This document shows positions 6,324 to 27,540 of a stretch of DNA of 32,694 nt, piece after piece. Position 1 is the first letter of the stretch. Every line of letters starts with the position of its first letter. The stretch comes from a virus, in the IMG/VR virus record IMGVR_UViG_3300026488_000042, positions 1 to 32,694 of that record; one strand, 5' to 3'. A program made the translations under genes and the position numbers. The notes beneath the pieces are model-generated. The model made no database searches. It was not told where the DNA came from and saw only the letters and a program-made list of their open reading frames with translations.

Positions 6324-6362
6324 ATTATATTAAAAACATCACTTTAAAATAATGCTATTTTA
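6324..6362 (-). promoter_or_regulatory. Late promoter copy 4 (lysis cassette)
   Basis: The minus strand has a perfect TATAAT (6324-6329) behind a T5 tract. The upstream element (6340-6362) matches 16 of 23 bases with the copy before the capsid gene, at exactly the same spacing to the -10. It begins at the stop codon of the giant gene and would give a leader of about 17 nt to the 105-aa ORF. Confidence 0.55.
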
Positions 6363-9300
6363 GTTTTTCTCTTCTTATTTTTTTTCTTTGTTCACTTTTT
6401 CTAAAACTTGCTGTGTTTAATCCTAAAGTGTTTAAAATATTTTGAGGGGTATTTTTTGGATTATAGACTTTATGACTTCTTCGTGCTTTTTCACTTCTTG
6501 CCAAAGAGGATATAAGGCTTATTCCACTATCTACTATGTCTGGAGTAATAAATCCACTAGCTAAACTGCCTAAAATATCTAATTTGCCTTTAACACCTTT
6601 TCTGTGTGTAATCTTTCCACCAAAGTAAGGACTATAACCTCCGTTGTCGTCTGCAAGACCTGTAATAGCACCACCTAAAGATATATAAGGATTTCCTCCC
6701 CATAAAGTATCTATTGGCATCTTATATATCTTCATTAAGTCTAAGTGTGGTAGCCATCTATCATATTTAACTCCATAAACATTGTCTCCACTTTTCATAA
6801 ATGGAGCATAAGACTTTCTAAATCTTTCTGGTGCATCTTTTTCATCAAACATATTCATTCCTTGTGCTTGATAAAGTCCATATATCATTGCAGCCAAAGT
6901 CATAGGTCTAGTTGGTCTTTCTGCAATTTGTCTCATCATAATAGGTGTTGAATAATAAGGAAATGCTATAAATGGGGCTACTCCATATCTTCTTAGCCAG
7001 TTAGCAACTTTACTCATAGGTTTTGAATAGTCTGGTATTATCTTACCTATCTCTCTAATGGCATTAATTGAGTCGTGACCCTCTTCCTTAAACTGTTTAT
7101 ATAATGCAAACCTTACAATATCATCTTCAAAGCTATAAACATCCTCTGCTTTTTTTTGTATCTTACTTCCTAACCCATCTACTTTTTTTATTGTTGGCTT
7201 CATATAAGAGTTAAGCGTATCATTAAGTTTATTTCCACCGAATAAACCGTCTTTTTTAGCTTCCGTCCATAATTTAACATCATTATCAACTTCTAATTTA
7301 GCTAATTTTTCTAACTCTTCTTCTGTTGCTGTTCCTACCATTTTCTTAGCATTTAAAGCAATTAATGCTTCTGATTTTGCTTTTGTCGTTACTGCTTTAG
7401 GAAAAAAACCTTTTCCAACTTCTGGTGCAACTGTTTTAAGAGTTTTTAAACCTCTTCCCTCCATAAATGCAAAACCTACAAGATTACTCATTATATTGTT
7501 AAAGTGAGTTTTTGGATTATAAATAGTATGTATAGATTTATACCATTTCATATATTCAGATATTGCTTCTTTTACCGAGCTATCAGTTCCATTTATTTGA
7601 GTATCTAATTCTTGAATATCATTTGCTACACTTCTTTCTACATATTGTCCATCTAATGCTCCGTACTTCTCCCCGCTTAGTTTTATATAACCTGCATTTT
7701 CTATCTGCTTAGGTGTATAATTCTCTATCTCTTTAGGGCTTAAAACATATTTACCTGCAACTCTTTTTAATAATTTTGCGTGAGCTACCATCTCATCAAG
7801 ATGTGAAAGAGTATCAGGAATAGAAAATGCAGCATCTTTTATCTCTCCCATATTTTTACGCTCTTCTGGTGTCCAATCTCTGCTAAACTCAAATTTTCCA
7901 TTCGGTAACTCTTTGGCTTCTATCTTCCCATCTGTAAAATTTCCTATTTCATTATTTTTAAGTAGTTTTTCATACTCTGACTGTGTACCTTTCCAATGTT
8001 TACCTCTTGCTATTATCGGATTTACTGTTTTGCCTTTTACTGCATAAAAAGCATTTTTTGCACTTCCCATTTTAGATGCGTATCTTCTTTTTAAATAAGC
8101 ACCTTTCCATCTGTTAAATGCTTCTTGTGATAATATTCCATCATCAACTAGCTGTTTACCTCTATCGTCAATATCTTTTATATACTTATCGCCTAATTTT
8201 TTAACCCCATCACTAATATTTACATTTTTATTGCCAGTCATATAGTCGTAGAGTCCTACTCTAGTGTCTTGTGGTAACTCTGATAACTGCTTGTGTAAAC
8301 TTTCAAGTTCTAACCCTCTGGAACTTCTCTCTCTTAGTGCATCATCTCGCCACTTCATATAATCTTTTTTCTCATAAATCTTATGACCTATGATATTATC
8401 CACTATCTCTTTTTCTTTTAAATCTTTATATACTCCACTTATTTTATTATCACTTAAATCGTCTATACCTTTAGCAACTGCTTTTACACCTTTATTTATA
8501 GCTCTATCGACCATATTTCCTTTAAGTTCTTTTTTCTTAGCTTCTTTTACTTTTTCTTTAAATGGTTTTTCTTCGCTATTCATCATTCCATTAGCTAAAC
8601 TATCATCTGGCCTAAATTTATTTATTGCATCTTCTGGTGCGATATTTTCACTACTATAAGGTGCAATTTTTTCTCTTTGTTCTGGTGTATAATTCATTCT
8701 CGCTTGAACATCTCTAGCCTCTATCTCTCCTGATAATCTTTGATATTTTTTAAATGCTTCTTCTTTCCCACCATTTTTATAAGCTGTTTCTATCTCACTA
8801 AGTTGTTTTAATTTTTTATCTCTTATAAAATCGTCTGGCTCAAATTCTAACTCATATTTAAGTAAATCTATTTTACTTTTTGCATCATTGTAAAATTCTT
8901 GTGCTGACCCACCTCGCGCAAAGCCCTCTTTATTTTGAATAGCATGTTGTATCTCGTGGAGTAGTGAAGATTTTATATCTTCTTTATTCATCGCTGAATT
9001 TAAAACTATTTCGTTAGCTTTCGCATCATAATAGCCATTCGCACCTTTTGGCATATCTGTAAAAGTTAATTTAGCGTCAAATAAAGTAGGATAATTGTCG
9101 TATAGTTCTTTGTGGTCTAGTACATCACTTAGGTTAAAAGCTCCATTGTTTCCTTTTGGTAACTCTAAGAAATTTTTATCAAGAAGTTCTAATGCTTCCT
9201 TTTCGCTAAATGCTCCGCTTTCATATTGTTCTCTAATATCATCGGCTTGTTTGTTAAGTCTTTCCCTCTTTATACTATTTAACTCTTTGGCTGTTGCTTT

Positions 9301-12300
9301 TATATTTGCTTTACTATCATCTATCTCAAACCGCTCCAAAGTATCATATTTACCCTCGAATTTTTTTCCTGCTTTCTCTGCCTCTTTAAAACCTTTAGCT
9401 TTGCTTCCTGCAAACAGTCCTGCTTTAAATCCTCCCTCTTCTTCTTCAAAAAGTTTAGGTGCTGCTTTTTTAAGTGCATTTATACTTATCGTTCCTGCTA
9501 CAACTCCTGCAAGTAAATCTTTATAATCATATTTTCCGTCACCGTTATAATCTCTCTGATTTATAAGGCTGTCTGTACCACCTGCAAAACCTCCTGCCAT
9601 TGAGTGCATACCATTTGCCATAAGTTTAGTAGGTTTTGTATGTGGGTCATATCCCCATTCGTGTATTGAGTTTCCATCAGTCCATAAATCTTTAGCTTTT
9701 ACTTTTTTTTCTACGATTTTATAGTTTCCATTAAGTACATTTTCTCCGTGAGTTTTAGCATATTCCTTGCTAATTGTTACCCAATCTTTAGAGTTTATTC
9801 CTGCATCAACATCCTTTGGAATTGCCCTATAAATCGTAACCTCTGCATCTGGATTATTTTTTACCTTGTTTATAACTTCTATGCTCTCTTTATCCATTTT
9901 AGGACTTCCGTGTCCGTGAAGTCTTTGAGCATCTTTTGAATAAATATCATCACTAAAAGAGTTTGTAACATCATCTGCTCGTGAGTTTACCTCGTCTGCT
10001 GTTGGTGCTGTATGTTCCATTTTATAACTATCTTCTTTTTGTGTTATTTCTGTTTGTTTAAAAGATTTATTAAACTCTGCATCTTGTTCTAGTCTTTGAG
10101 CTTTAAATTTATTTGTTCCTATTTTTGCTATCGTATGTATGTCGTTTCGTATCTCTTCATTAGGCATTTCTCTATATGTTCCATTGCCTCGCTTAAAGTA
10201 AACAGTTCCACTATCTCCTAAGTAATACTCTCGCTCTCTTAATGGATGATATACTTTTCTGCCTTTTTCTGGCAATCCCTCTAATCTTTTTTGTTCTGCA
10301 ACTCTCGCTAAAAGTCCTTTTTGTTTTTCTTCTTTTTGTGGTATAATTGCTTTATCAAAGTCGGCATTAGAAGCTTCTTTTTTGAAGTAGGTGTCATTGT
10401 GACCAACTGTCGGCTTTTTTCTATTAGTATAAAAACTAACAATAAAATCATTTCCATTTTTCTTATGCTCATCTACAATAACTTTTAACCTTGTATTATC
10501 TGCGTCGTAATATGTATATTCTCTTCTTGTAGGAGTTATGTTTTCTACATCTGCCTTTCTTATAATATCGACAATATCAATAAGTTCATCTGGTGTTAAA
10601 CTATCTCTTTTTTCTCCAAAGTGTTTAAATATAATATGTTTAGCTCCTACTTTTACATTTCCTTTTGTTAAATGTAATGTATTCTGAATTGTACTTATAT
10701 CATCAGTTTTCAACTCTGCCATATTTCTTTTTCCTAAATATACATTAGCTATTTTCTGTTGTTCTGGATTAAGTTCTTTACCCTCTAAATGTTTTTTTAG
10801 TACATCTATTTTTTTAGAGTATTTTTCTTTGCTTGATACACTCATTTCGCTTACATCACCATCATACTTAATAATAGGCTCTTTATACTCTCCCTCAACT
10901 CTTTTAAGCGTACCTTGCCAGCTCTCTTTTTGTCGCTCTTGTGGTGTCATATCTTTACGATATTGTGTCGCTCTTGCTTGTTGTTCTCCGTGTAGTCGTT
11001 TATAAGTATCATATTTTAATGCTTCAATACCACCATAATTGCCTGATGCAATATTTATAATTTTTTCATACATTTTGTTTTCAGTCGGTATTTTTCCATT
11101 CAAATAATCTTTTTCTATTCTTTCTATTACAGGTAAATTTCCGTATCTTTCAATAATTGTTTCATACATATCTTTAGGATGTATATTATCAGGACTTCCA
11201 CCTCTCGCCCATCCCTCTTTAGCTTGTATTGAGTGTTGTATTTCGTGTAACAATGAAGATTTATTTATATTTTTTGTTTTTGTATCGTACCCTACGATTA
11301 TTCTGTTTGCATCAGCATCAAAACTTGCACCTTGCATATCTGGTTTTAAGTGAACTATTGTATTTTTTAATTCTGGGTATTTTTCAAAAAGTTCTTTGTG
11401 GTCCAATATCTCATCAAGTTTTGCAGTTGTTGAATTACCTGCTTTTATATCTTCGGATGTTCCCCAGGTTCCATTAGATACTTTAGCCTTACTATCATCT
11501 ATCTCTTTCATAGTCTTTTTAGTAGCCACATCACTAAAAGCACCTTTTTCTATCCCTTTTCTCCACTCCATATTTAAGCTACTGCCATTCTCTTTAAAAG
11601 CTTTTATTGCATCTTCTACTGATAAATCTTTATTAAAAGTAGGTCTAAAACCATTTTTATAGAAAAATTTTACTGAATTTTCATTAGATGCTTGTGCCGA
11701 AATATTATCATACTCATTTTTAGCCTTATTAAGTAATTCTGTTCCTTTTCCACTTCTTCTTAAATTGTCTGGTACTTCTATGTGATTTATAGAGTTTCTA
11801 CCTTGTGCATAAGGACTTTTTTCAAATATTTCAAGTTGTCCGTTTTTATCTCCATAATTTGCTTTTGTAATATCGTGTCCGCCTAAATCTACTACTGATT
11901 TTTTAGCGTAACTTTTAGCATAATTTTTGCTATTAGTTCCAACAAACATAGAATTAAAACTATTACCCTCTTTTTGTATTTCTGGATTAAAATTAACCTT
12001 GTTTATAGCATCTGTTGCGTACTCTTTTAACTTCCCTCTTATTGTTCCATTTTTAAGTGCGTGTTTAACTGCTGTATATCCACCTAAGCCTAAAATAAAT
12101 TTCTCTGGGTCAAAGGTCATATTTCCGTTTTCATCTTCTCCAATACCTGCATAAGTTCCTACTACTAAGTTATCTATCCCTTTGCTAAATAGCTCGTTTG
12201 CTTCTTTCCAATCGTCACTATTCATTTTTATATCTGTATCATCAAGCTTCGCTAATTCTGCTTTATAATCAATATTATTTTCACTATTAAATGACTTCGC

Positions 12301-13698
12301 ATAGTCTGGGTGATTATCTAAAGTGCTTAAATCTGTTTCAAGTTTACTTAGTAAGTTATCGTCATATTGCCCTCTATAAAGTTGCCCTATGTCTTGCTTT
12401 GTTAAGTGAAAATCAGTTGCATAGTTTTTTTCATAAAGTGCTTTATCGTATGCGTGTTTGTTTTCTCCACCATTTCCGTTAAGTTCTCTATAACCGCCTT
12501 TGCTAACTACTCTCTGTGGACTTTTTGCATCTTTTGCACTTATGTTTTCTCTCATGCTTAAAAGCTCTTGTAATCGTGGGTGTGATGCTACTTGTTGGTA
12601 TCTCTGCATTAACTCTGCATTTGCATTATATGGTACTGGAATATTATTGTTAAAATCTCCACTTACAAAGTTTGGATTATATGGCTGTTCTGGTTGTTGT
12701 GGATAAATACTCTCTTTTGCATATTGTGGCTGTACTTCGTACTTATGTTGATAAATAGGCTCTAAACCTTGTGCTACCCTCTTCTTGTCTGCTTCTCTTG
12801 CCAATACTGATAAAGCCTTGTTCATATCCATTGTTACTGGTGGATGGTTTGGTTTCATTTGGAAATTTGGCTCGTATTGTTTTCTAAATCCTGCTTGTTC
12901 TATTTTAAATTCATTTGGTACTTTTGGATATTTACCTTGTAAAATCTCTCCACTAATTGCTTGTGTTTCTTGTGGTGATAATCCCATCGCATCTGCATTA
13001 TTTAAGATTGCATTTGCTATGTCTTCATCACTTTTTGCACCTTGTATCATTTCTGGCTTAATTACATTATTAACTCTACCTTTTGTTAAGGCGGATATAA
13101 GTCCGTTTACACCTGCAACTATTCCTGCTCCCCACTCCATATTGTTTATTTTTTCATCTGTTGTTAAGCTATCATTTCCATAGTCTTTGATTGCTGTTGT
13201 TGCTGTACCAATACCTGCACCTAATCCCATACTTGTAGCTATTGCTCTAGGTTTCGTTTTGGTTGCACCAACTGCTAATTTTTCAATTAAGCTTCCTGCC
13301 TTACCTATTTTTTGCCCTTTAGATACTATTCCAGCAGGTGTAACATTTGCAGGGTCAAGTATCATTTGCCCTGCAAAATTATAATATGGGTGGTTTGATG
13401 TTTCTAGTGAGTTAAGCTTACTTTGTTTGTTCCAATAATCTTTATTGTCTTCAAAAAACTTAGTATCTCTACCTGTTACTGTATCTGCTACATAGTCTAA
13501 CCCTTTATTAATACTTGCACTATATTCATCTACATTTTTAGTAAATCCTTTTAAAAAAGACATTGTTCTTCCACTATCTGCATTTAATGCTTCTAATAGT
13601 TCTGGGTCTGTTACTTCTTGCATAGGTTTTTGCTTAGGTTGTTGTGTAGTATTTGAATTGAGCATTGCTAAAATTTTAGGGTCTGTTACTTCTTGCAT
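6355..13698 (-). CDS. Giant polyvalent virion protein, 2447 aa
   Basis: This is the largest gene, before the lysis cassette. Residues 1-40 repeat a MQEVTDP motif. About 640-690 has GNAT-like RRSGKGTELL and FFYKNGF. A module with HEIQH at 818-822, then ARGGS and a GEQQAR/MTPQER block near 905-920, recurs with HEIQH at 1581-1585 and GEIEAR/YTPEQR near 1655-1675. These are metallopeptidase-like associated domains (LPD23-like). About 1010-1085 (GAKHIIFKHF, then FYTNRKK) resembles phage BECR/RelE-like nucleases. About 1285-1350 (VTIYRAIP, DWVTISKEYA, DGNSIHEWGY) is a domain common in phage polyvalent proteins, perhaps ADP-ribosyltransferase-like. An EF-hand-like DYNGDGKYDYKD lies near 1380. Residues 1960-2280 resemble LPD38 (NPKTHFNNIMSN, YSFEDDIVRFALY, PFIAFPYY). 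Such proteins are thought to be packaged and injected with the genome to counter the host. Domain names are by eye. Confidence 0.8.
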   Translation of the reverse strand: MQEVTDPKILAMLNSNTTQQPKQKPMQEVTDPELLEALNADSGRTMSFLKGFTKNVDEYSASINKGLDYVADTVTGRDTKFFEDNKDYWNKQSKLNSLETSNHPYYNFAGQMILDPANVTPAGIVSKGQKIGKAGSLIEKLAVGATKTKPRAIATSMGLGAGIGTATTAIKDYGNDSLTTDEKINNMEWGAGIVAGVNGLISALTKGRVNNVIKPEMIQGAKSDEDIANAILNNADAMGLSPQETQAISGEILQGKYPKVPNEFKIEQAGFRKQYEPNFQMKPNHPPVTMDMNKALSVLAREADKKRVAQGLEPIYQHKYEVQPQYAKESIYPQQPEQPYNPNFVSGDFNNNIPVPYNANAELMQRYQQVASHPRLQELLSMRENISAKDAKSPQRVVSKGGYRELNGNGGENKHAYDKALYEKNYATDFHLTKQDIGQLYRGQYDDNLLSKLETDLSTLDNHPDYAKSFNSENNIDYKAELAKLDDTDIKMNSDDWKEANELFSKGIDNLVVGTYAGIGEDENGNMTFDPEKFILGLGGYTAVKHALKNGTIRGKLKEYATDAINKVNFNPEIQKEGNSFNSMFVGTNSKNYAKSYAKKSVVDLGGHDITKANYGDKNGQLEIFEKSPYAQGRNSINHIEVPDNLRRSGKGTELLNKAKNEYDNISAQASNENSVKFFYKNGFRPTFNKDLSVEDAIKAFKENGSSLNMEWRKGIEKGAFSDVATKKTMKEIDDSKAKVSNGTWGTSEDIKAGNSTTAKLDEILDHKELFEKYPELKNTIVHLKPDMQGASFDADANRIIVGYDTKTKNINKSSLLHEIQHSIQAKEGWARGGSPDNIHPKDMYETIIERYGNLPVIERIEKDYLNGKIPTENKMYEKIINIASGNYGGIEALKYDTYKRLHGEQQARATQYRKDMTPQERQKESWQGTLKRVEGEYKEPIIKYDGDVSEMSVSSKEKYSKKIDVLKKHLEGKELNPEQQKIANVYLGKRNMAELKTDDISTIQNTLHLTKGNVKVGAKHIIFKHFGEKRDSLTPDELIDIVDIIRKADVENITPTRREYTYYDADNTRLKVIVDEHKKNGNDFIVSFYTNRKKPTVGHNDTYFKKEASNADFDKAIIPQKEEKQKGLLARVAEQKRLEGLPEKGRKVYHPLREREYYLGDSGTVYFKRGNGTYREMPNEEIRNDIHTIAKIGTNKFKAQRLEQDAEFNKSFKQTEITQKEDSYKMEHTAPTADEVNSRADDVTNSFSDDIYSKDAQRLHGHGSPKMDKESIEVINKVKNNPDAEVTIYRAIPKDVDAGINSKDWVTISKEYAKTHGENVLNGNYKIVEKKVKAKDLWTDGNSIHEWGYDPHTKPTKLMANGMHSMAGGFAGGTDSLINQRDYNGDGKYDYKDLLAGVVAGTISINALKKAAPKLFEEEEGGFKAGLFAGSKAKGFKEAEKAGKKFEGKYDTLERFEIDDSKANIKATAKELNSIKRERLNKQADDIREQYESGAFSEKEALELLDKNFLELPKGNNGAFNLSDVLDHKELYDNYPTLFDAKLTFTDMPKGANGYYDAKANEIVLNSAMNKEDIKSSLLHEIQHAIQNKEGFARGGSAQEFYNDAKSKIDLLKYELEFEPDDFIRDKKLKQLSEIETAYKNGGKEEAFKKYQRLSGEIEARDVQARMNYTPEQREKIAPYSSENIAPEDAINKFRPDDSLANGMMNSEEKPFKEKVKEAKKKELKGNMVDRAINKGVKAVAKGIDDLSDNKISGVYKDLKEKEIVDNIIGHKIYEKKDYMKWRDDALRERSSRGLELESLHKQLSELPQDTRVGLYDYMTGNKNVNISDGVKKLGDKYIKDIDDRGKQLVDDGILSQEAFNRWKGAYLKRRYASKMGSAKNAFYAVKGKTVNPIIARGKHWKGTQSEYEKLLKNNEIGNFTDGKIEAKELPNGKFEFSRDWTPEERKNMGEIKDAAFSIPDTLSHLDEMVAHAKLLKRVAGKYVLSPKEIENYTPKQIENAGYIKLSGEKYGALDGQYVERSVANDIQELDTQINGTDSSVKEAISEYMKWYKSIHTIYNPKTHFNNIMSNLVGFAFMEGRGLKTLKTVAPEVGKGFFPKAVTTKAKSEALIALNAKKMVGTATEEELEKLAKLEVDNDVKLWTEAKKDGLFGGNKLNDTLNSYMKPTIKKVDGLGSKIQKKAEDVYSFEDDIVRFALYKQFKEEGHDSINAIREIGKIIPDYSKPMSKVANWLRRYGVAPFIAFPYYSTPIMMRQIAERPTRPMTLAAMIYGLYQAQGMNMFDEKDAPERFRKSYAPFMKSGDNVYGVKYDRWLPHLDLMKIYKMPIDTLWGGNPYISLGGAITGLADDNGGYSPYFGGKITHRKGVKGKLDILGSLASGFITPDIVDSGISLISSLARSEKARRSHKVYNPKNTPQNILNTLGLNTASFRKSEQRKKIRREKLK

Positions 13699-13732
13699 TT
13701 TGATAGCCTATTTTTTATGATAGCCTATCAAA
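13699..13732 (-). promoter_or_regulatory. Hairpin abutting the start of the giant gene
   Basis: TTTGATAG (13699-13706) pairs with CTATCAAA (13725-13732). After a G-G mismatch a further CTAT/ATAG pairing closes an 8-nt loop, 12 bp in all. The only Shine-Dalgarno-like sequence (ATAGG) is in the stem. Upstream read-through messages would fold it, while a transcript from the promoter just upstream (predicted start near 13715) would lack the 5' arm. This could favour translation from the dedicated promoter. Confidence 0.45.
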
Positions 13733-13760
13733 TATTTATTTTTAAAATAAGTGGGTTTTA
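13722..13760 (-). promoter_or_regulatory. Late promoter copy 1 (giant gene)
   Basis: The 23-nt element at 13738-13760 starts right after the stop of the 279-aa gene. On the minus strand it reads TAAAAC, variable CCCA, CTTATTTT, AAAAAT. TTTG follows with its G exactly 9 nt further (13729), as in copies 2 and 3, then a weak -10 (TAGGCT, 13722-13727). It is 21/23 identical to copy 3. Confidence 0.6.
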
Positions 13761-13761
13761 A

Positions 13762-14601
13762 TTATTGCATAAACCATTTTCCGTTTTTGTCTTGAACATA
13801 TGTTTTATTTCCTGCTGTTTTTTGATTTATAAAATTAGTGTTTGGTGCTTGTTGAGTAGGCTTACTGCTTGGTGCTTGTTGTGATGTTCCTATTGTGTAG
13901 CCATCTCCAAACCATCCACCGCTACCCTCTATTTTTGGAACTGTGCCTGTGTTTATATAATGTTGCATAACTTGTTTTTTTTGTGCATCTTCTAAATCAC
14001 TCCACTCTGGTACTATTGATGTAGGGTCTTTAGTAAATAATTTAGTTCTATCTATTTTATATTTCTCTGCATTGTTTGTTTTTCCAATAGGGTGTAAATA
14101 CTTTTGCATCTCAAAATCGTGTGTTTTATCAAACTTTTGTGCATTAAAGTCATAAGTTTTGTTAAATTGCCCTTGCTGTTGTGCTAGTCTTTTGTTTTGT
14201 AAAGATTCTTTCTCTAGTCTGTTTTGGCTTGATTGAAATTTAGAGTTTTTAAGAGTTTGGATAAATTGATTATTTTTCATATTTAAAGTATCGTAATTTT
14301 GTTGCATATTTGCATTTCTTTTATCTGCTGAATACTGTAAGAAATTACCTATTTTATTTGTATTCTCTTCGCCTGTTTGTAAGTGGACCTGTGGAGGTTT
14401 TATGCCATTTGGATAATTATTTGGAAATTGAGATTTTTGTGATTGTGCTAGTGAATTAACTATACTATTTTTTGGTTTTGGTGGATTAAAATTCATAGTA
14501 ACACCATCGCCATAACTTCCGTCTGGTTTTACTAATCCCTTCCCCACTTGTCTTGACTTTGTACCTATTTTTGTACTATTATCATCATACATAAATGCCA
14601 T
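13762..14601 (-). CDS. Gln/Asn-rich virion-associated protein, 279 aa
   Basis: No family is recognised. The N-terminal 75 residues are Gly, Pro and Asn-rich (DGSYGDGVTMNFNPPKPK) and probably extended. Residues about 80-175 are helical and rich in Gln, Asn and Lys (NKRLAQQQGQFNKTYDFN), coiled-coil-like. About 190-225 is a compact, less biased segment (WSDLEDAQKKQVMQHYINTG), and the tail ends in a short KTYVQDKNGKWFMQ motif. It has its own late-type promoter (copy 2) and sits just upstream of the giant gene, so it may be an internal virion partner of that protein. ATG 14601 follows TAGGG. Confidence 0.65.
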   Translation of the reverse strand: MAFMYDDNSTKIGTKSRQVGKGLVKPDGSYGDGVTMNFNPPKPKNSIVNSLAQSQKSQFPNNYPNGIKPPQVHLQTGEENTNKIGNFLQYSADKRNANMQQNYDTLNMKNNQFIQTLKNSKFQSSQNRLEKESLQNKRLAQQQGQFNKTYDFNAQKFDKTHDFEMQKYLHPIGKTNNAEKYKIDRTKLFTKDPTSIVPEWSDLEDAQKKQVMQHYINTGTVPKIEGSGGWFGDGYTIGTSQQAPSSKPTQQAPNTNFINQKTAGNKTYVQDKNGKWFMQ

Positions 14602-14622
14602 AATATCCCTACTTTTTATGTA

Positions 14623-14661
14623 AGATTAGCAAATAATCATTTTCAAAATAAGAGAGTTTTA
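14623..14661 (-). promoter_or_regulatory. Late promoter copy 2 (279-aa gene)
   Basis: The 23-nt element at 14639-14661 begins at the stop codon of the 453-aa gene and matches copy 1 at 20 of 23 bases. TTTG ends at 14630 (9 nt from the element), followed by TAATCT (14623-14628) as a weak -10. The predicted leader of about 15 nt carries TAGGG before ATG 14601. Confidence 0.6.
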
Positions 14662-16020: not shown

Positions 16021-16051
16021 AACATACTCCTTAAAAATATGTTATATTATA
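16021..16051 (-). promoter_or_regulatory. Promoter -10 and RBS hairpin for the signal-peptide gene
   Basis: A perfect TATAAT lies at 16046-16051 on the minus strand. Downstream, AACATA (16038-16043 on the minus strand) and TATGTT (16021-16026) form a 6-bp stem just before the ATG, with AAGGAG displayed in the 11-nt loop. No 23-nt late element is present, so this promoter may be under different control. Confidence 0.45.
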
Positions 16052-16059
16052 CTACAATA

Positions 16060-17103: not shown

Positions 17104-17111
17104 TTTATTCC

Positions 17112-17837: not shown

Positions 17838-17838
17838 C

Positions 17839-18447: not shown

Positions 18448-18456
18448 TGCATATTC

Positions 18457-19023: not shown

Positions 19024-19029
19024 AACTTA

Positions 19030-19070
19030 CTCCTTTTGTATTGATTATTTATACCGCCCTATTGAGGGCG
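19030..19070 (-). promoter_or_regulatory. Hairpin plus leader motif before the 188-aa gene
   Basis: On the minus strand, CGCCCT-CAAT-AGGGCG (19055-19070) is a GC-rich 6-bp stem. ATCAATACAAAAGGAG (19030-19045) follows and holds the ribosome binding site. There is no U-tract in the direction of transcription, so it reads as a 5' leader or processing structure. Confidence 0.55.
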
Positions 19071-19076
19071 ATATTT

Positions 19077-20552
19077 TTAAAATCTAAATAAATAGTCGTC
19101 TGTGTCGTGACTTGTTTCTGGTGTAGAAAAGTTCTTTTTACTTGAATTAAATGCAATAAACTTTCCACCTTGATTAACTGTATATACAGCATTAAAACCG
19201 TTCCCATCAGTATTTTGTAAAACTTGCTTTTCTAATGTACTTCCTGAAACTTTGTAATATTCACCGTTTGTATCTGTAACTAGAATAGAAACACCTGTAC
19301 CAACATTCATACATACTGACTGTTTAAAACATAGTGAATTGCTAGTAGTGTTTGAATTTTCACCACTTCCTGCCCATCCGCAATTTGGTAAACTTTGATT
19401 ATCGTACCATGAAGTATAAGCATCTTTCCAACTATCTTGAACACCTGCTTTTGAAAATACACTTAATGCTTCTTTCTTAGCTAATTCTGTTTCTGTTCCT
19501 GCTTTTCCTAGCATCAAACCTTGAGGATGGCTTTGTGAAAATAACCCTAGTGATATAATATTGTTTGCTATAACATTTCCATCGTATAACAATTCTTTAT
19601 CTCTATTAATAGAGTAAGCTCCAACACTTCTAACAATTTTTGAAACACCGTTATCTAGTTTTATTTCAATTATTCCACCATTTCCATTCGGCATAATATC
19701 TACTACATCATTTTCACCAATTGCTACTGCTTTTCCGTCATCTGTTAAAATAGCTTTCTCTATAACACCAACTTTTGCTTGTTTTAACATTTGCCCCGAT
19801 GCTACTCTAATTACACCATTTGTTATAGTTCTATGAGTAAAATAGTTTCCGCTAGAATATGGTGCATATACTTCAACTGCATGGTTATAAATATTTCTAC
19901 AAATAAAAGTATTGTTATCACTTTTTACTGTAAACTCTGTTATATCAGGGTCTGATACATTTTTACCCATATTAAAACGTGTATTTATACTTGCTCCATT
20001 TTGAACGATATTTACATATCCCTCTAAATCAAGATAAGCATATCCATAATGATAAGTAAATAATTGTACTGCATTAATAAGTATATTATGAGGTACTGCA
20101 CCAGTAAATAACGATATACCTTGTGAGTTTAAAGTTCTTCCACCATGAGAAGCTACATTTTTTATCCCTGTTGCTTGATATTCTCCATTAGTATAGCCGT
20201 CTATCTTGAAGCCATTTAATTTAGGCATCGTTACTTCTGTTGTTTTTCCGTCTGCATCTGTGAAACTTTCGTCTACTGTTTCAACACTTCTAAAGAGTTT
20301 TACACATCTTTTAGGAACTGGTGTTATTTGATATGCGTGTTTTTCTTTACTATCTGACCCTATCACTCTTTTTATAGTGTCTGGTGGGTTTTTAGGGTCA
20401 AAGGTAAAAGTAGCATCACCTAACCCTATTTTAACTTTAGAACAATCTGAATTATTAACAGTTGGATAAATTGTTACTTTACCATTACTTACACTTGCTC
20501 TGTAACCACAGCCTGCTGATACACTAGGCTCATTGTGAATTGCTCTACTCAT
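19077..20552 (-). CDS. Fibre- or spike-like protein, 491 aa
   Basis: No family is recognised. The first about 90 residues are a compact Cys-containing start (HNEPSVSAGCGYRAS). Residues 150-330 are rich in short beta strands with N, G and D turns (NGVIRVASGQML, NGNGGIIEIKLDNG), compatible with a beta-helix or beta-sandwich spike. The C-terminus (NCGWAGSGENSNTT, SVCMNVGTGVSILVTD, GGKFIAFNSSKKN) could be a receptor-binding tip. The Shine-Dalgarno AGGAGG is embedded in the last codons of the 802-aa gene, three bases before the start region, so the two are translationally linked. It is probably a tail appendage, by context. Confidence 0.65.
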   Translation of the reverse strand: MSRAIHNEPSVSAGCGYRASVSNGKVTIYPTVNNSDCSKVKIGLGDATFTFDPKNPPDTIKRVIGSDSKEKHAYQITPVPKRCVKLFRSVETVDESFTDADGKTTEVTMPKLNGFKIDGYTNGEYQATGIKNVASHGGRTLNSQGISLFTGAVPHNILINAVQLFTYHYGYAYLDLEGYVNIVQNGASINTRFNMGKNVSDPDITEFTVKSDNNTFICRNIYNHAVEVYAPYSSGNYFTHRTITNGVIRVASGQMLKQAKVGVIEKAILTDDGKAVAIGENDVVDIMPNGNGGIIEIKLDNGVSKIVRSVGAYSINRDKELLYDGNVIANNIISLGLFSQSHPQGLMLGKAGTETELAKKEALSVFSKAGVQDSWKDAYTSWYDNQSLPNCGWAGSGENSNTTSNSLCFKQSVCMNVGTGVSILVTDTNGEYYKVSGSTLEKQVLQNTDGNGFNAVYTVNQGGKFIAFNSSKKNFSTPETSHDTDDYLFRF

Positions 20553-20554
20553 AA

Positions 20555-22963
20555 CTAATTTCCTCCTGTTGGTATTAAAACTTTTTTATCGCCTATTGTA
20601 AAGAATTTAGCATCAATATCACTTCCATTACTCCATGTAATGTCTATACTTCCATCTTCATTTTTTGAAATATCGTATGTTACTTTTTTAGGCTCTAAAT
20701 CTGGGTCTGGTGTAGGAAAATCTGGCTCTCCAACAACTTCTATAACATTTTTATCATCATTCCATCTAGTTTCAATAATTTTTACATTATCAACAACTTT
20801 TTCGTATGATAATTCACCATCAACATAAAATAATCTATAAGATAAAGATACATTTTCGCTATCAAGTGCATCATCTGTAATTACATTATCAAAAACATAA
20901 AATACTGTTTTGCCATCAATCTTATCGCATTTTTTACTGTTAATATAAAAATCCATACTACTATGAGAATACATTACATCATCTGTATAAGCAGACCCTA
21001 GTGTAGTTCCGATTCTATAAAAATTTTCAGTTAAACAGTCGAAACACGGTTGTTGTTCTATTTTATCTCCTGTTACATCTAATAAACTAACATAACATTC
21101 TCCATTAGATAAAAGCTTAGAGACAACATCAAGACCTCCTAAAGATATATTGTTAATACCATAAGAATTAATATCGGTGCTAATTTCACCATGCAGCATA
21201 CTAGATACATCTACAATACATCTATCTCTTTTCGTCATAAGAAAATTAGTTAAATCACCACCATATCCTTTATATTTTTTATTATATGTTAAATGGTATG
21301 GTATTTCTTTTCCGTTTTCATCTTTTTCAAAAACATAAGAATTTACTTTAGTGTTAATTTCTATATCTCTTGTTGCTTTCGCTCCGAATATTTTTTCATC
21401 AGATGTATATTTTATAACTTCAAAATTCATCACTTCTATTGTCTCATTAACATTAGAATTGTTAAGGAATCCACTAAAAAATATTGGCATTTCGTGATTA
21501 ATTACTTTTACATCTAATACATCTAAAATCTCTTCTAGTGGTGTATCTTCTTCTATCACCAATGTTCTTGTAAAACTTTCGTTTTTAATATAATGACAAT
21601 ATCTTGTAACTACTTCTCTAAAACCCTCTGGAATTGTTTTTTTTAAAAAACCTGTATGATTTATACTGTGGGCTTTATCATAGATTAATTTCTTTCCTTT
21701 TAAGTCTGTTAGTGTTTTTAGATAATCTAAATTTTGGAAAAAGTATTCACTATCTCCTACAATTATTTCATCACTTAAATAAGTGTTTAAGTAACTTTCA
21801 TCATGGTTAAACCAACCGCCACTAGGGTTTGAGCCATAAGAGCCTGCTATAAAAGTTATATTACTAGAATTATCTATAAAGCTACTATATGGCATGAAAT
21901 CATTTACATATCCATCAAATTCGTTAGCAAATTTATAAAAGCTATTTATTACATTTCCGTCTTCATCTTCAACGTCCCATTTAATCATATCATCTTTAAA
22001 AACACTATAAAATGCTTTCTTTAAAAAATCAAATTCTTCTAGGCTAATTTCGTGATTAACAATAGAATATGTAATAACTATTTCGTTATCTTTTACCACT
22101 ATATGAGCAAATAATTCAGATGAAAATCTTTCGTCTTTATTTTTTAAAACAATGTCAATAGAGCTTAAATTATTGATATATTTTAATGATAATATAGCTT
22201 TAACTATCGACTGTGTATCTGGTTTTGAGACAATTCTTATCCCATCTTCACAAGAAAAAGCATCCAAATAGCTTGGTAAAAAATACAAATTTGTATTATT
22301 GTTAAAGTTAATTCTCAATGATGTTTTTGTGTTTTTGTCTCTTCTTAGGATTGAGTTTTTTATAATAAACAATTCTTCTGAACTTCTAATGCTTGTTGAA
22401 ATACTGGCATGGTTACTATCATTAAAATAACTATATGCAATATAAACTTCATTAGCATCAAAATAAAACCATGTAGTATTGTTAAATTTTTTTGAATCTT
22501 CTTCAATTTTATTAATAAGCAAATTTAATTCTAATTCTGATAAATTATCTAAACTAAAATTATAATGAATATAATGTACTTCTTTAATAGCATCTTCATC
22601 TGGATAATCGCATCCATAAGAACTATACATATTCAAAAAATATAAAGCTCTATCCCTTTCAATAAAAGGCTTATCATAAGTAGCATCATATTTGCACTCA
22701 TAGCTTTCTTTGTTGTTAAATGTAGCTAATTCATCTGTTATTGTATGTACTTTTAAAGTTTTATCTTTACAAATACCATTTATAAACAATTTCCCATCTT
22801 CAATAGAAAAAGAATAAATGTTACCATTAATAACGACGCCTGCTTTACCGTCGCTATTAAACTCACATTCTTTTTCAGTTTCAGTTTCTATACTGCTACT
22901 TTCAATTTTATTTTCATCTTCACTACCACTATTTCCACCAATTTTAAGTTTAATCTTTTTCAT
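20555..22963 (-). CDS. Large appendage protein, 802 aa
   Basis: Unrecognised. The start is Lys-rich (MKKIKLKIGG), followed by an acidic Ser/Glu linker to about residue 35. The body has many Tyr, Asn and Asp residues and strand-turn patterns (YECKYDATYDKPFIERDR). A run of Leu-rich helix-strand segments near 110-350 (LSELELNLLINKIEEDSKKF) is weakly repetitive. The C-terminus has a Pro-rich spacer (FPTPDPDLEPK) followed by a short Ig-like or fibronectin-like end domain (DGSIDITWSNGSD). The length and place between two other large proteins suit a tail spike or receptor-binding protein. Its MKK start resembles the MKKK of the upstream 469-aa protein. Confidence 0.65.
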   Translation of the reverse strand: MKKIKLKIGGNSGSEDENKIESSSIETETEKECEFNSDGKAGVVINGNIYSFSIEDGKLFINGICKDKTLKVHTITDELATFNNKESYECKYDATYDKPFIERDRALYFLNMYSSYGCDYPDEDAIKEVHYIHYNFSLDNLSELELNLLINKIEEDSKKFNNTTWFYFDANEVYIAYSYFNDSNHASISTSIRSSEELFIIKNSILRRDKNTKTSLRINFNNNTNLYFLPSYLDAFSCEDGIRIVSKPDTQSIVKAILSLKYINNLSSIDIVLKNKDERFSSELFAHIVVKDNEIVITYSIVNHEISLEEFDFLKKAFYSVFKDDMIKWDVEDEDGNVINSFYKFANEFDGYVNDFMPYSSFIDNSSNITFIAGSYGSNPSGGWFNHDESYLNTYLSDEIIVGDSEYFFQNLDYLKTLTDLKGKKLIYDKAHSINHTGFLKKTIPEGFREVVTRYCHYIKNESFTRTLVIEEDTPLEEILDVLDVKVINHEMPIFFSGFLNNSNVNETIEVMNFEVIKYTSDEKIFGAKATRDIEINTKVNSYVFEKDENGKEIPYHLTYNKKYKGYGGDLTNFLMTKRDRCIVDVSSMLHGEISTDINSYGINNISLGGLDVVSKLLSNGECYVSLLDVTGDKIEQQPCFDCLTENFYRIGTTLGSAYTDDVMYSHSSMDFYINSKKCDKIDGKTVFYVFDNVITDDALDSENVSLSYRLFYVDGELSYEKVVDNVKIIETRWNDDKNVIEVVGEPDFPTPDPDLEPKKVTYDISKNEDGSIDITWSNGSDIDAKFFTIGDKKVLIPTGGN

Positions 22964-22970
22964 AATAAAC

Positions 22971-24380
22971 CTACACTATTTTAAATTCTATCGAATAGTC
23001 TGTACCATCAAGTAATGAAGTATCATAATCAAGTACATAAGCATTTCTTTCTTCGTCATAAGTTAAGTTACTTGTGATTTCATCGCCATTTTTAGCAACG
23101 ATTGCTAATCTAATTTTTTCCATTACTGCATTAGATAATGATGCTAATAGTGTTTCATTTGAAATGATGCTATTTGTGATTTCTTCTGGTGCAAAATCAT
23201 TTTTAATTTCATTTGGAATATCTACTGCTAATTGCTCAACTCTTTGTGAAATAGCATTAATACTTGTATTTGTATTATCAATCTTAGAATTTGTATTATC
23301 AATTTTTCCATTAATTAAATCAACAACCTCTTTACTAATACCACCTGCAATTTTAGATATACTAAAGCGCTCTACAAGTCCATCACCTACAAAGTTTGTT
23401 TTGTCAGTTTCTATACCATTAATGCTGTATTCATATACTGGAAATTCGCTTGGTTGAACTGGTTTGCTTATTTGCATGATTCCGTTTTCATCATAAGTAA
23501 CGATTGGTAAATAGCCATTTTCGCTATCGCATAAAGTAACACCACCAACAGCCATGTATCTAACTACGCTTTCAATACCATCTGCTTGTAATTCGTCTAT
23601 TGTTTGGACTACAAATTCACTTTCTTCACTCTCACTTTCTTCACTCTCACTTTCTTCACTCTCACTTTCAATATTTAAGCTTCTTACTAGCTTTGAAGTC
23701 TTACCATCAATAAATTTATAATGTTTTCCATCATATACAAATTCAAAGGCTTTTTTACCATCTTCGCCTATTTCGTCAGTTGTATTAACTGTTATTGTAA
23801 CAGGCATTAATCTATCATTTGAGCTAATAATATGAAAAACATTAATATAACCATGATAAGTATCATTTTTGTTAGGAAATGAAATTATAAAGTTTTCTTG
23901 CTCATTCATTTTTGATGTTTCATTTAAAATGAACTTTCCTGCGTCTTTAGAATAATTCATAATGTTTCTTGTGAAAAAAGACATCTCCGTATCTTCACTA
24001 TAATAATCTTTAACCATTTCTAAAAGTTCATCAGAAAGCGCTAAAACGACAATAGTTTTACTTATATCTAGTGGAATTTCTGTTTGTTCTCCTGCTTTTA
24101 GTCTAAAGTATGTTGGTGCTTCTTTTTGTGAGACATCAACTATATCGCCATTATCATTGATGGGGTCTCCACGTTCACCATTTAGATAGTATTTGTAATC
24201 TCTTGTAATATAAAAAATATCAAAATTGCTTCTTTTTGTTTGCCCTATTTTTAAATCTGCTCCAAAGATAACAGTTTCTTGATTAAGTGCATCTTCGCCT
24301 AGTTCACTAAGAATTTTGCTCTTGATTAAAGCATCACTTGAATTGTTATTATCCACTATAAAATTTAATTTCTTTTTCAT
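22971..24380 (-). CDS. Appendage protein with acidic repeat linker, 469 aa
   Basis: Unrecognised. Residues 1-235 form an N-terminal domain (MKKKLNFIVDNNNSSD start, YKYYLNGERGDPINDNGDIV). A strictly repeated acidic linker of ESESE units follows (about 239-255, coded by a 15-bp tandem repeat). A C-terminal part has a helical neck with two SKIDNTN/GKIDNTN copies (about 365-380) before a small end domain. The layout of N-domain, flexible linker, coiled-coil neck and tip is typical of trimeric tail fibres. Its start overlaps the previous stop by one base. Confidence 0.65.
   Translation of the reverse strand: MKKKLNFIVDNNNSSDALIKSKILSELGEDALNQETVIFGADLKIGQTKRSNFDIFYITRDYKYYLNGERGDPINDNGDIVDVSQKEAPTYFRLKAGEQTEIPLDISKTIVVLALSDELLEMVKDYYSEDTEMSFFTRNIMNYSKDAGKFILNETSKMNEQENFIISFPNKNDTYHGYINVFHIISSNDRLMPVTITVNTTDEIGEDGKKAFEFVYDGKHYKFIDGKTSKLVRSLNIESESEESESEESESEESEFVVQTIDELQADGIESVVRYMAVGGVTLCDSENGYLPIVTYDENGIMQISKPVQPSEFPVYEYSINGIETDKTNFVGDGLVERFSISKIAGGISKEVVDLINGKIDNTNSKIDNTNTSINAISQRVEQLAVDIPNEIKNDFAPEEITNSIISNETLLASLSNAVMEKIRLAIVAKNGDEITSNLTYDEERNAYVLDYDTSLLDGTDYSIEFKIV
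23619..23669. repeat. 15-bp tandem repeat, 3.4 copies
   Basis: The unit ACTTTCTTCACTCTC occurs at 23619-23633, 23634-23648 and 23649-23663 and then partially. It encodes ESESE repeats in the 469-aa protein. Copy number can change by slippage in steps of five residues without a frameshift, so linker length may vary between isolates. Confidence 0.85.
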
Positions 24381-24751
24381 TATATTACTACCGCCTCCGC
24401 TTGATATACTATGTTCCCCATAGCCTCGATTTGCTCATTTGCTTGTTCTACTGTTGTATCTATTGCATTAATGCTCTCATTGATTTGTACTTTATCTAAA
24501 ATATCAAACTCCAATGTGCCCATACTGTACTTATCTTTACATGCTTCCGAAAAAACTCTATAAATGTTCCCTGTTCTTGCATCGAAAACATCTGCGAAAA
24601 AATAGTCAATATAATTTCCGTCTGCATCTTTGTTGCTATCTACTTCTTGAAATGTATCTCTCATCCAATTAGTAGCAAAGTCTTTAGCACCTTGCACCGT
24701 GATTGTTGATACTGGTCTAATCAGTACCTCTTTTTTGTATAATCCTGCCAT
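24380..24751 (-). CDS. Hypothetical virion protein, 123 aa
   Basis: No family is recognised. It starts MAGLYKKEVLIRPVSTITVQ, with mixed alpha/beta character (NWMRDTFQEVDSNKDADGNY). The C-terminal third is helical with Gln/Glu-rich spacing (NESINAIDTTVEQANEQIEAM), like the oligomerising end of a small fibre-base or chaperone protein. The leader contains ATCAATACAAAGG. It lies between the coiled-coil 325-aa protein and the 469-aa fibre-like protein, and its stop overlaps the start of the latter, suggesting a connected assembly step. Confidence 0.6.
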   Translation of the reverse strand: MAGLYKKEVLIRPVSTITVQGAKDFATNWMRDTFQEVDSNKDADGNYIDYFFADVFDARTGNIYRVFSEACKDKYSMGTLEFDILDKVQINESINAIDTTVEQANEQIEAMGNIVYQAEAVVI

Positions 24752-24840
24752 ATTATTACCTTTGTATTGATGTTAGAGCTTGTACTCACTATAACCCTCC
24801 AAAGAGGGCTACATGAACACAAAAAAATGTTCTTAATGCA
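24752..24840 (-). promoter_or_regulatory. Hairpins plus leader motif before the 123-aa gene
   Basis: On the minus strand a GAACA/TGTTC stem with a T7-containing loop and a CCCTC-TTTG-GAGGG stem follow the 325-aa gene. ATCAATACAAAGG then precedes ATG 24751. The first stem is a possible weak terminator; the rest matches the leader module seen at three other genes. Confidence 0.45.
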
Positions 24841-24845
24841 ATAGT

Positions 24846-25823
24846 CTAAACTACTGCACCGTCACCGTCACCGCCTGAATTTCCACCTGAACAGTCTTTA
24901 TCTGCTAAACCTAGTGATGCACGGAATTTATTGTGAATACCGCACATATCCATAGAAGATGCTTTAAGAGTGTTTGCATCTGTATATGCTTTAGCTTGTG
25001 CCAACATATCTGCTTCTGCTTGTACTGCTCTTGCTGCTTCATTTGTTAAAGCTGTTTCAACATCACCAACACGAGTAACAATACCTTTAACAAGGTTATC
25101 ATCTTCATCAGTTGTGTCTGCCAAAGTGTTTTCAACTTCGCCTAAACGACCATCAAGACCCTCTACTGTTGTAGCTGTATCTCCTGTGATTGCTTCGATT
25201 TGTTCATCTGTATAAGCTTTTGCATCATCTGTTGCACCTGCTTTAGCTGTTGCGATTGCTGAATTTGTACGAGCTGTTTCATCTGCAATTTTTTTAGCGA
25301 TTGACCCCTCTACTGTTTCATCTCCAGTAAGAGTAGAAATTGCACCCTCTGCACCTGCAACACGACTTTCAACATCTGCATTTACTGTATCTTGTGCTGA
25401 TTTGTTCGCATCAACTTTATCTGATAGATTACCTAATGCTGTTTCATTTGAATTTGATTTGTTTAAGTTAGAAGTGATTTGTGATTGTAAATCTGCTTCT
25501 GCTGCTGTTGCTCTTGAAACTTCATCTAATACTGATTGTTTGTTCTCTAGGATTTTTCCTAAGATGTTTTGAACAACACCATCTCCATCAGAAATAACAG
25601 CGTCAATAGCTTGGATTTTTTCTGCTAGTGATTCTGCACCATTATCTGCATCAAGTTCCACAATAGCTGTGATTTGTGCTTGTAAGTCTGCTTTAGAAGT
25701 TGTAAGCTCTTCAACTGTTGCATAACCTAAACTCTCTACATACTCCTTAACGGATAAACCCATCTCATTTGCTAAGTCTTGTAAAGCCTGTTCTAATTCG
25801 TCTGTTGTTACATTATCTGCCAT
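24846..25823 (-). CDS. Coiled-coil tail-fibre-like protein, 325 aa
   Basis: After a short helical start (MADNVTTDELEQALQDLANE), residues 30-290 are Ala, Asp, Glu and Thr-rich and nearly all helical. Repeated phrases include KADLQAQI, AEADLQSQI, DAKAYTDEQI and QAKAYTDAN, the usual vocabulary of phage fibre stalks. The C-terminus switches to SSMDMCGIHNKFRASLGL with two Cys, then a Gly/Asp tail (GGNSGGDGDG), probably a tip or docking element. Its G+C and Ala content exceed neighbouring genes, which may reflect composition of the coil or separate acquisition. ATG 25823 follows AAAAGG. Confidence 0.72.
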   Translation of the reverse strand: MADNVTTDELEQALQDLANEMGLSVKEYVESLGYATVEELTTSKADLQAQITAIVELDADNGAESLAEKIQAIDAVISDGDGVVQNILGKILENKQSVLDEVSRATAAEADLQSQITSNLNKSNSNETALGNLSDKVDANKSAQDTVNADVESRVAGAEGAISTLTGDETVEGSIAKKIADETARTNSAIATAKAGATDDAKAYTDEQIEAITGDTATTVEGLDGRLGEVENTLADTTDEDDNLVKGIVTRVGDVETALTNEAARAVQAEADMLAQAKAYTDANTLKASSMDMCGIHNKFRASLGLADKDCSGGNSGGDGDGAVV

Positions 25824-25831
25824 AATATAAA

Positions 25832-25868
25832 CCTTTTGTATTAATTTTTTGAGCTATGCTCATCAAAA
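25832..25868 (-). promoter_or_regulatory. Hairpin plus leader motif before the 325-aa gene
   Basis: TGAGC-ATA-GCTCA (25850-25862) is flanked by T and A runs that can extend the stem. It is followed on the minus strand by TTAATACAAAAGG, which carries the ribosome binding site. This is the same arrangement as at the 188-aa gene and the first early ORF. Confidence 0.5.
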
Positions 25869-25893
25869 AGCTTTAAAAAAGCCCTTTAATAAA

Positions 25894-26061
25894 CTACCTA
25901 TTAAATTCTAAAAAAATAACTACTATAACTATGATTATTTGTATAAATAACATTACATTACTTACTATCTTTTTATTGTTTTCTCTGATTTCTTCTCTGA
26001 TTTTTTCATCAATATCTTTTCCCATATTTGAGACTAGATGTTTAATTTCTGTTTCATTCAT
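25894..26061 (-). CDS. Tail-anchored membrane micropeptide, 55 aa
   Basis: ATG 26061 overlaps the last eight bases of the 140-aa gene. Residues 1-32 are charged and helical (EKIREEIRENNKKIVSN); residues about 36-52 are a strong membrane segment (VMLFIQIIIVIVVIFL), then a short basic end. The overlap with the connector gene and clean hydrophobic pattern support it as real. It could be a second holin-type or membrane-channel protein used at lysis or DNA entry. No family is recognised. Confidence 0.6.
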   Translation of the reverse strand: MNETEIKHLVSNMGKDIDEKIREEIRENNKKIVSNVMLFIQIIIVIVVIFLEFNR

Positions 26062-26476
26062 ATTGTGATAAATCTACACTATTTGAGTTATAGTAACTAA
26101 TAATATCTTGAGCATTTTTTGCATAATCTATATTTTTCTTATTCGTAAGATAACTACACATATAATAGATAATAGCTTGTGTAAGCTCTTCATCAATATC
26201 TATTACTGCATCATCTTCAATGCTTACAACTGCATTTCTAATATACCAATGGTTATAGACTTCATCAATATCGTTGTAAGTGCTGTATATCCTACGAAAA
26301 ATATCTGTTTTTGTATCATCATAAGGTGCTACTAATTGAGAGGGAATACATCTAAGCATCACATCTCTTAATGCCATAGCTAAGTAAGTATCATCACTTG
26401 TTAAAAGTTCTTCTGATTTAGAGTTATCCCCTCTTAAAAGTCCTACAACTGATTTTCTTACTTGGCTATAAGTCAT
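26054..26476 (-). CDS. Head-tail connector/adaptor-like protein, 140 aa
   Basis: It sits right after the major capsid gene, where podovirus-like phages place the adaptor that joins portal and tail. The sequence is helical, with LRDVMLRCIPSQL (36-48), a middle loop, VIDIDEELTQAIIYYM (91-106) and a YAKNAQDIISYY helix near 118-129. The pattern recurs in the N-terminus of the 347-aa appendage protein at 16060-17103. Family identity is not certain; the call rests on position, size and helical pattern. Four bases separate it from the capsid gene stop. Confidence 0.6.
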   Translation of the reverse strand: MTYSQVRKSVVGLLRGDNSKSEELLTSDDTYLAMALRDVMLRCIPSQLVAPYDDTKTDIFRRIYSTYNDIDEVYNHWYIRNAVVSIEDDAVIDIDEELTQAIIYYMCSYLTNKKNIDYAKNAQDIISYYNSNSVDLSQYE

Positions 26477-26480
26477 TTAA

Positions 26481-27419
26481 CTATTTCCACCCTTTAGATG
26501 AAGCGAACATATCTCCGTTTTTAACCTCTAAAGTTAAATCTGAATAGTAACGACCATATTTAGCTGTTTTTGAAGTAGGAACATCTTTAAATGAAGTTTG
26601 AGAAACATACATCGCTCTTGCTTCTTTAAATTTACCTGCCATCATTTTATCTTTAAGTGCATCACCTGCAAAGTGTCTGTGTAGTTGAAATTCTACCTCT
26701 CCAAAGTCTGTAACAATACGTGTAACTGTTGGGTCAATTTTTCCTGCGTGTGCTTGGTTATATTTGATAATATAATCTTTACATACCGCATTAACTTTTT
26801 GCTTTAGTTTTGAGCCTAAAAGAATTTTAAATGTATCATCTTCCATTGCTCCACGTTTCCACAAAGGCTCTAAGAAGTTATGAAGTTCATCTAGTGAAAA
26901 ATCCACAAAGGTACTATCATCACTTGCATCGTAACCATCTGGAGTGTATCTATGCTCGTTTGGTACAAAGTAAAATAAACCTGCCATTCTTGGTGCTTTA
27001 GATGCTGTTGCTGAAACTGGTGATGCTTCTATGTCGCTGTTACCTAAACCTAAAAGTGCATACTCAATATCTTTAAGATGTTCTTTACCTTTTTTACCTA
27101 CTTGATAAGCCCACTCTTTGCCACCATATTGGCTCATTTGCATTTGTCTTTGTGTTACACCTACCTCGTTTTTAATGATTTGTGCGACATTGGCTGTTTT
27201 TGTTTTTGTTGGTACTGTGTTTTCGTCTAAGTCTGTTAGTTCAAGATTTGCATTATCTTTTGCATCTGCATATCTATCGTTAATCCAACTATGACTAGGT
27301 GCTGAAATACTACCTGTGCCAATAAGTTGTAAAATCGGTGCTGTTGCTACACCCTGCTTAATAATCGCATCGACTATCGACGGCTTTTGTGTTAATTGTG
27401 TGTTTAATGTTGTTAGCAT
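26481..27419 (-). CDS. Major capsid protein, SU10-type
   Basis: A 312-aa HK97-fold subunit that builds the procapsid shell. The pattern matches the SU10 major-capsid family: SWINDRYADAKDNANLE near 44-60, a NVAQIIKNEVGVTQRQ block near 77-92, and QVGKKGKEHLKDIEYALLG near 106-125. The central part has strand-helix segments of an A-domain-like nature (FKILLGSKLKQKVNAV, TRIVTDFGEVEFQLHRHF), and it ends YYSDLTLEVKNGDMF. Length is within the usual range. It follows a strong terminator and its own late promoter (copy 3), which would let it be made in excess of the portal and terminase. GGGAAGAG precedes the ATG. Confidence 0.88.
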   Translation of the reverse strand: MLTTLNTQLTQKPSIVDAIIKQGVATAPILQLIGTGSISAPSHSWINDRYADAKDNANLELTDLDENTVPTKTKTANVAQIIKNEVGVTQRQMQMSQYGGKEWAYQVGKKGKEHLKDIEYALLGLGNSDIEASPVSATASKAPRMAGLFYFVPNEHRYTPDGYDASDDSTFVDFSLDELHNFLEPLWKRGAMEDDTFKILLGSKLKQKVNAVCKDYIIKYNQAHAGKIDPTVTRIVTDFGEVEFQLHRHFAGDALKDKMMAGKFKEARAMYVSQTSFKDVPTSKTAKYGRYYSDLTLEVKNGDMFASSKGWK

Positions 27420-27456
27420 TTACTCTTCCCTTTCTCTGTTTTTTAAAAGTATCCGT

Positions 27457-27495
27457 ATTCTTACAAAAAAAGATTTTTAAAATAAGGGAGTTTTA
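27457..27495 (-). promoter_or_regulatory. Late promoter copy 3 (major capsid gene)
   Basis: The 23-nt element at 27473-27495 is followed, 9 nt on, by a T7 tract ending in G (27464) and then AAGAAT (27457-27462). TTTTTTTG before a -10 is the form described for sigma-70 promoters in Campylobacter. It lies directly after the terminator at 27499-27540, so it would restart transcription for the capsid gene. Confidence 0.62.
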
Positions 27496-27496
27496 G

Positions 27497-27540
27497 AAAA
27501 AACCCTACTTTGTCTGTAAATTAATACTAAGTAGGGTTTT
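27497..27540 (-). terminator. Rho-independent terminator after the scaffold gene
   Basis: On the minus strand AAAACCCTACTT pairs perfectly with AAGTAGGGTTTT over an 18-nt loop, 12 bp in all, and the stem leads straight into a run of T. It is 7 bp after the scaffold stop and before the capsid promoter. It would insulate terminase-to-scaffold transcription from the capsid unit. Confidence 0.85.

Follow-up and report, generated by a model that had tools for sequence, protein, structure and literature searches.

Three predicted late promoters of a probable Sulfurimonas phage lineage share a 23-nt element that may serve as an activator site

The locus raises the question of how a temperate phage could switch on several late genes together. 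The window, by which we mean the whole stretch of 32,694 nt that was analysed, encodes a tyrosine integrase, exonuclease VIII, RecT, a small and a large terminase subunit, a portal/head-tail adaptor, a holin and an endolysin, and judged by this gene content it is a temperate tailed phage cut at both ends. The head genes, together with the lack of a recognised tape measure, suggest a podovirus type. Related capsids (78-97% identical) were found in ten IMG/VR contigs, and one (89%) in a contig of a Sulfurimonas MAG; the ends of the MAG contig seem to overlap inside recT, which suggests that this genome is circular and complete, at about 37.9 kb. Sulfurimonas is therefore probably the host, an assignment made by binning. 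The only Sulfurimonas phage that we found described in the open-access literature, SNW-1, has a tape-measure protein and baseplate genes (PMC11290706), and so is apparently of another type than the window phage.

In the window the late genes are encoded on the minus strand, and on this strand a 23-nt element with the consensus TAAAACNCNCTTATTTTRAAAAT occurs three times. The features discussed below are, in the order of transcription:

27499-27540, minus strand: intrinsic terminator that separates the capsid element from the gene before it (-15 kcal/mol, z -4.1, followed by a T run)
27473-27495, minus strand: 23-nt element of the predicted capsid promoter, TAAAACTCCCTTATTTTAAAAAT (pattern match)
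27457-27467, minus strand: putative extended -10 of the capsid promoter, TTTG-T-AAGAAT
26481-27419, minus strand: major capsid gene, the first gene past the element at 27473 (phrog_1328, E 2.4e-46)
14639-14661, minus strand: 23-nt element of the predicted promoter of the 279-aa gene, TAAAACTCTCTTATTTTGAAAAT (pattern match)
14623-14633, minus strand: putative extended -10 of the 279-aa gene, TTTG-C-TAATCT (comparison of 14 sites)
13762-14601, minus strand: 279-aa late gene (no PHROG match; homologues in the related genomes G001, G003, G005, G006 and G013)
13738-13760, minus strand: 23-nt element of the predicted promoter of the giant gene, TAAAACCCACTTATTTTAAAAAT (pattern match)
13722-13732, minus strand: putative extended -10 of the giant gene, TTTG-A-TAGGCT (comparison of 14 sites)
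6355-13698, minus strand: giant late gene (2447 aa), with the element at 13738-13760 upstream
6324-6362, minus strand: claimed fourth copy ahead of the lysis genes (element part 6340-6362, 14-16 of 23 matching; TATAAT at 6324-6329)

The three copies are identical to one another at 20-21 of 23 positions, and they are the only zero-mismatch matches to the pattern TAAAACNCNCTTATTTTNAAAAT in the window. In 100 dinucleotide shuffles of the window this pattern gave a mean of 0.07 matches at up to 3 mismatches, and no shuffle reached three, so the copies are real and far above chance. An earlier, sequence-only reading of this DNA had described them, and its coordinates, identities and spacings were all reproduced here. 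Its statements that the copies precede the capsid, 279-aa and giant genes, and that each begins at or near a stop codon or terminator, also agree with the gene positions: the capsid copy follows the terminator, and the copies of the 279-aa and giant genes start at, or 1 nt past, the stop codon of the upstream gene (the first three bases of the element at 14639-14661 are that stop codon). The product of the giant gene matches, at residues 1192-1358, a PHROG named ParB C-terminal domain, and the remainder is mostly without a match.

Each copy is followed by TTTG, with the G as the 9th base downstream of the element, and by a hexamer at positions +11 to +16, as the sequence-only reading had noted. 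Comparison of the window with its relatives yielded 14 distinct sites in 11 contigs, which read YAAAAYNYNCTTATTTTR. TTTG was present in all 14, at the same spacing in 13 and one base farther in L011, the contig whose capsid is 78% identical; because TTTG had been left out of the search query, the constancy of its placement was obtained independently. The TG stands one base ahead of the hexamer (TTTG-N-hexamer) at every site (14/14), and the hexamers match TATAAT at only 3-4 of 6 positions in all 14, bearing out the earlier description of the -10s as poor. If the hexamer is taken as the -10, the element spans about -45 to -23, and the -35 position, across a 17-bp spacer from the hexamer, is occupied by TTATTT, part of the invariant CTTATTTT; at every site this hexamer shares only 2 of 6 positions with TTGACA. 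Position 10 of the element is an invariant C. Activator-dependent promoters typically show this combination of a weak core and, over the -35, a conserved element specific to the phage. An alternative description of the element as an inverted repeat, TAAAA-N8-TTTTA with covarying ends, reached only p = 0.09 and was set aside.

The element is found at the same genes in related phages, which is the outcome of the search that the sequence-only reading had proposed. It lies ahead of the capsid gene in every relative whose capsid is at least 87% identical, ahead of the 279-aa gene or a small gene just before it in G003, G005, G006 and G013, and ahead of the giant gene in G001, G003, G005, G006 and G013. 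Conservation at the capsid site is sharply bounded: a 39-nt block is 0.81-0.94 identical between relatives, whereas its flanks are mostly 0.3-0.5 identical. Copies scattered at random within the relatives' genes, named beforehand as evidence against the idea, did not occur. Since sites at the same gene share descent, they are not independent of one another, and what counts as independent evidence is the occurrence at three gene positions, the sharp limits of the conservation, and a single copy that is both relocated and degraded. The latter, at L011:4295-4334, has a perfect TATAAT at the L011 spacing and precedes the homologue of the window gene at 24846-25823, which in the other relatives has no element ahead of it. 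Two observations count against a late-promoter role: the homologue of the 279-aa gene in G001, which differs at its N-terminus, has no element upstream, and two relatives with 58% identical capsids have none before the capsid gene. No convincing repeated upstream element was seen in the more distant relatives, namely the Campylobacter phage PP935708, Sulfurimonas G124, L012 and L013.

Outside this lineage the combination of element and spaced TTTG is absent from the collections searched. A scan for AAAAYNCNCTTATTTTRAAAA in 2.9 million viral contigs returned 32 stretches; those from the lineage all carry the spaced TTTG ahead of a late gene, and the others lack it, most of them lying inside genes. 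The pattern occurred five times in 228 genomes of the host family, three times in a single phage contig and twice without the spaced TTTG. A host regulon was accordingly discarded, there being no spaced site outside the phage contig in these 228 genomes; confinement to the phage lineage indicates a phage-specific element and not a host regulatory site.

Taken together, we consider it likely that the three copies mark coordinated late promoters of a Sulfurimonas phage lineage, with a predicted phage activator over the -35 and the host sigma-70 on the extended -10. The host sigma-70 RNA polymerase would contact the weak extended -10, whose TTTG-N-hexamer form is the normal Campylobacterota type. 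An activator encoded by the phage, presumably expressed from the early operon, would bind the element and replace the -35 contact, and the capsid operon, the 279-aa gene and the giant gene would thereby be switched on together late in infection. The sequence-only reading had likewise proposed an activator site that replaces the -35. In its favour are the shared element, the fixed spacing, the position over the -35, the retention at the capsid, 279-aa and giant genes and the absence from the host family; that an activator binds there is what we infer from these, and the lysis promoter, which had been counted among its targets, is not supported as a member.

The main competing possibility is that these are ordinary constitutive host sigma-70 promoters, duplicated and kept by RNA polymerase contacts alone, with no activator involved. 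In Campylobacterota, sigma-70 promoters have TGxTATAAT behind upstream DNA that is A/T-rich and periodic (PMC3656092), and the element is A/T-rich with T- and A-tracts and places TTATTT at the normal -35 distance. Against it speak the invariant C at position 10 and the long sequence-specific identity across three gene positions; the -10 hexamer is weak at every site, and no spaced-TTTG copy exists outside the phage contig in the 228 host-family genomes, so that we regard this explanation as unlikely. The normal -35 distance and 17-bp spacer of the invariant CTTATTTT could also mean that a phage-encoded sigma, or a factor that appropriates sigma, reads this sequence as its -35. Such a factor seems highly improbable, given that searches of the window proteins and of early proteins of G013, an apparently complete genome, recognised nothing sigma-like and no RNA polymerase, and that the -10 retains the host-type TG, although the hexamer itself varies between sites. 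A small factor resembling T4 MotA might still be at work, and would then be a variant of the activator explanation.

The overlap with the -35 is also a place where a repressor could act, and the element might then be the operator of a phage repressor that silences late genes in the lysogen. This is very unlikely. The cI-cro regions of G013 and G006 lack the element and have unrelated dyads, the same element is kept in relatives with different CI and Cro, and the underlying promoters are weak, a property that a repression model does not call for. Because the element is unchanged where CI, Cro and the cI-cro operators differ, the immunity repressor does not read it, and a CI/Cro operator was rejected; a separate repressor, other than CI, may still act there. 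Elsewhere in the window, the dyads GTAAGAATATCTTAC and GTAAGTATATCTTAC at about 440-510 resemble those of the G013 cI-cro region, which suggests CI-type operators ahead of the recombination genes of the window.

The sequence-only reading had included a fourth copy, at 6340-6362 before the lysis genes. The TATAAT behind it does stand at the same spacing, but its membership in the family was not upheld. With a 23-nt weight matrix built from ten real sites it scores 2.5, as against 27-34 for the real sites; about 12 equally good matches are expected by chance in a Markov-simulated window, and two decoys outscore it in an 18-nt scan of the window. In relatives the matching lysis region scores -5.7, with TACAAT one base farther. 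The best reading of the site is that of an ordinary promoter whose -10 is good. Descent from the element is possible, because TAAAATAGYATT is common to the relatives and because a 16-of-23 match at one fixed position is itself uncommon (probability 0.0005-0.0009 in AT-rich random DNA). The proposed inverse relation between element quality and -10 quality holds in part: full elements always come with hexamers of 3-4/6 (14 distinct sites), but the only strong -10s are those at 6340, where an element is not demonstrable, and at L011:4295, where it is degraded.

Which protein might act on the element can be judged from the relatives, since the window itself lacks the early region. The best candidate, put forward as a guess and more doubtful than probable, is an 81-aa early protein resembling ribbon-helix-helix regulators. 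It is kept in the early operon across relatives with different immunity genes, including the diverged contig L078 (58% identical). In a PDB profile search its best match was ParG (E 0.12), and a structure search with its model (pLDDT 69) returned TacA, CopG, Arc, CdbA and ParG, none significant (best E 0.93); these signals for a ribbon-helix-helix fold are weak but consistent. Two other small genes were considered and dropped: a 70-aa gene beside terS, which was modelled as one long helix and had no PDB match, and a 75-aa early gene, for which L078, the diverged early contig, showed no homologue.

A shared element at fixed spacing and a weak core lacking a consensus -35 are features of activator-dependent phage late promoters, and both are found here. 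Known systems differ in the site itself: the P2 activator site lies farther upstream than the -35, whereas the present element overlaps it, and the Mu C site is a TTAT-N6-ATAA dyad, different in sequence from the element. P2 has four Ogr-dependent late promoters with the activator site TGT-N12-ACA, and in P2 and 186 (Ogr and B, respectively) there is likewise one activator site per late operon, upstream of a weak sigma-70 promoter (PMC3931495). Mu, similarly, has four late promoters that depend on C; their -10 and -35 depart from the consensus, and the activator site is found at or beside the -35 (PMC4461284). The P2 consensus TGT-N12-ACA is absent from the element sequence; the P2 activator is a zinc-finger protein with CX2CX22CX4C, and neither this Ogr-type family nor the Mor/C family was recognised among the window and G013 proteins searched. 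The present promoters thus belong to neither group and are a new example of a known principle. They share with Campylobacterota sigma-70 promoters the TG-N-hexamer, the A/T-rich periodic upstream DNA and the lack of a classical -35 (PMC3656092), but differ in their weak hexamers (3-4/6) and in a sequence-specific element of 18-23 nt that is absent from host genomes. The late-promoter signal itself looks new in sequence: in keeping with the sequence-only reading, we found no Campylobacterota phage late-promoter family described in open-access papers.

The strictly spaced motif offers a searchable handle on the timing of virion-gene expression in these phages. With it, three transcription starts can be predicted with an accuracy of a few bases, and only a few early genes are left as candidates for the late activator.

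Some further features were observed in the window and its relatives. The dyad GATAGGCTATC (window 13719-13729, minus strand) overlaps the -10 of the predicted giant-gene promoter, and a near copy, TAGGCTATCA (13702-13712, minus strand), overlaps the ribosome-binding region of the giant gene; both are kept in G001 (22152, 22169) and partly in G003, G005, G006 and G013. The large terminase of G013 (L033:8440-10866, 808 aa) carries an intein-like insert with Hint and LAGLIDADG domains, which the 485-aa terminase of the window apparently lacks.

More speculatively, and with the odds against it, these Campylobacterota temperate podovirus-type phages might use a late system of new sequence in which the small early protein resembling ribbon-helix-helix regulators activates extended -10 promoters of host type from a position over their -35, and distant Helicobacter pullorum relatives may have an unrelated element at the same two genes. 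If so, the layout would be conserved between Sulfurimonas and Helicobacter pullorum phages and the recognition sequence replaced. The H. pullorum prophage BK070136.1 (L083:13576-13605 and 19874-19903) carries a different 30-nt element, ATTTTAAAGRRAAAAGGCAGGGTAGTTTTT, in copies identical at 28-29 of 30 positions, and it is also present at L084:13530 and 19831. The two genes that it precedes are exactly the capsid gene (29% identical to that of the window) and the giant gene; as a -10-like TATTATA is found on its upstream side, this element may work differently.
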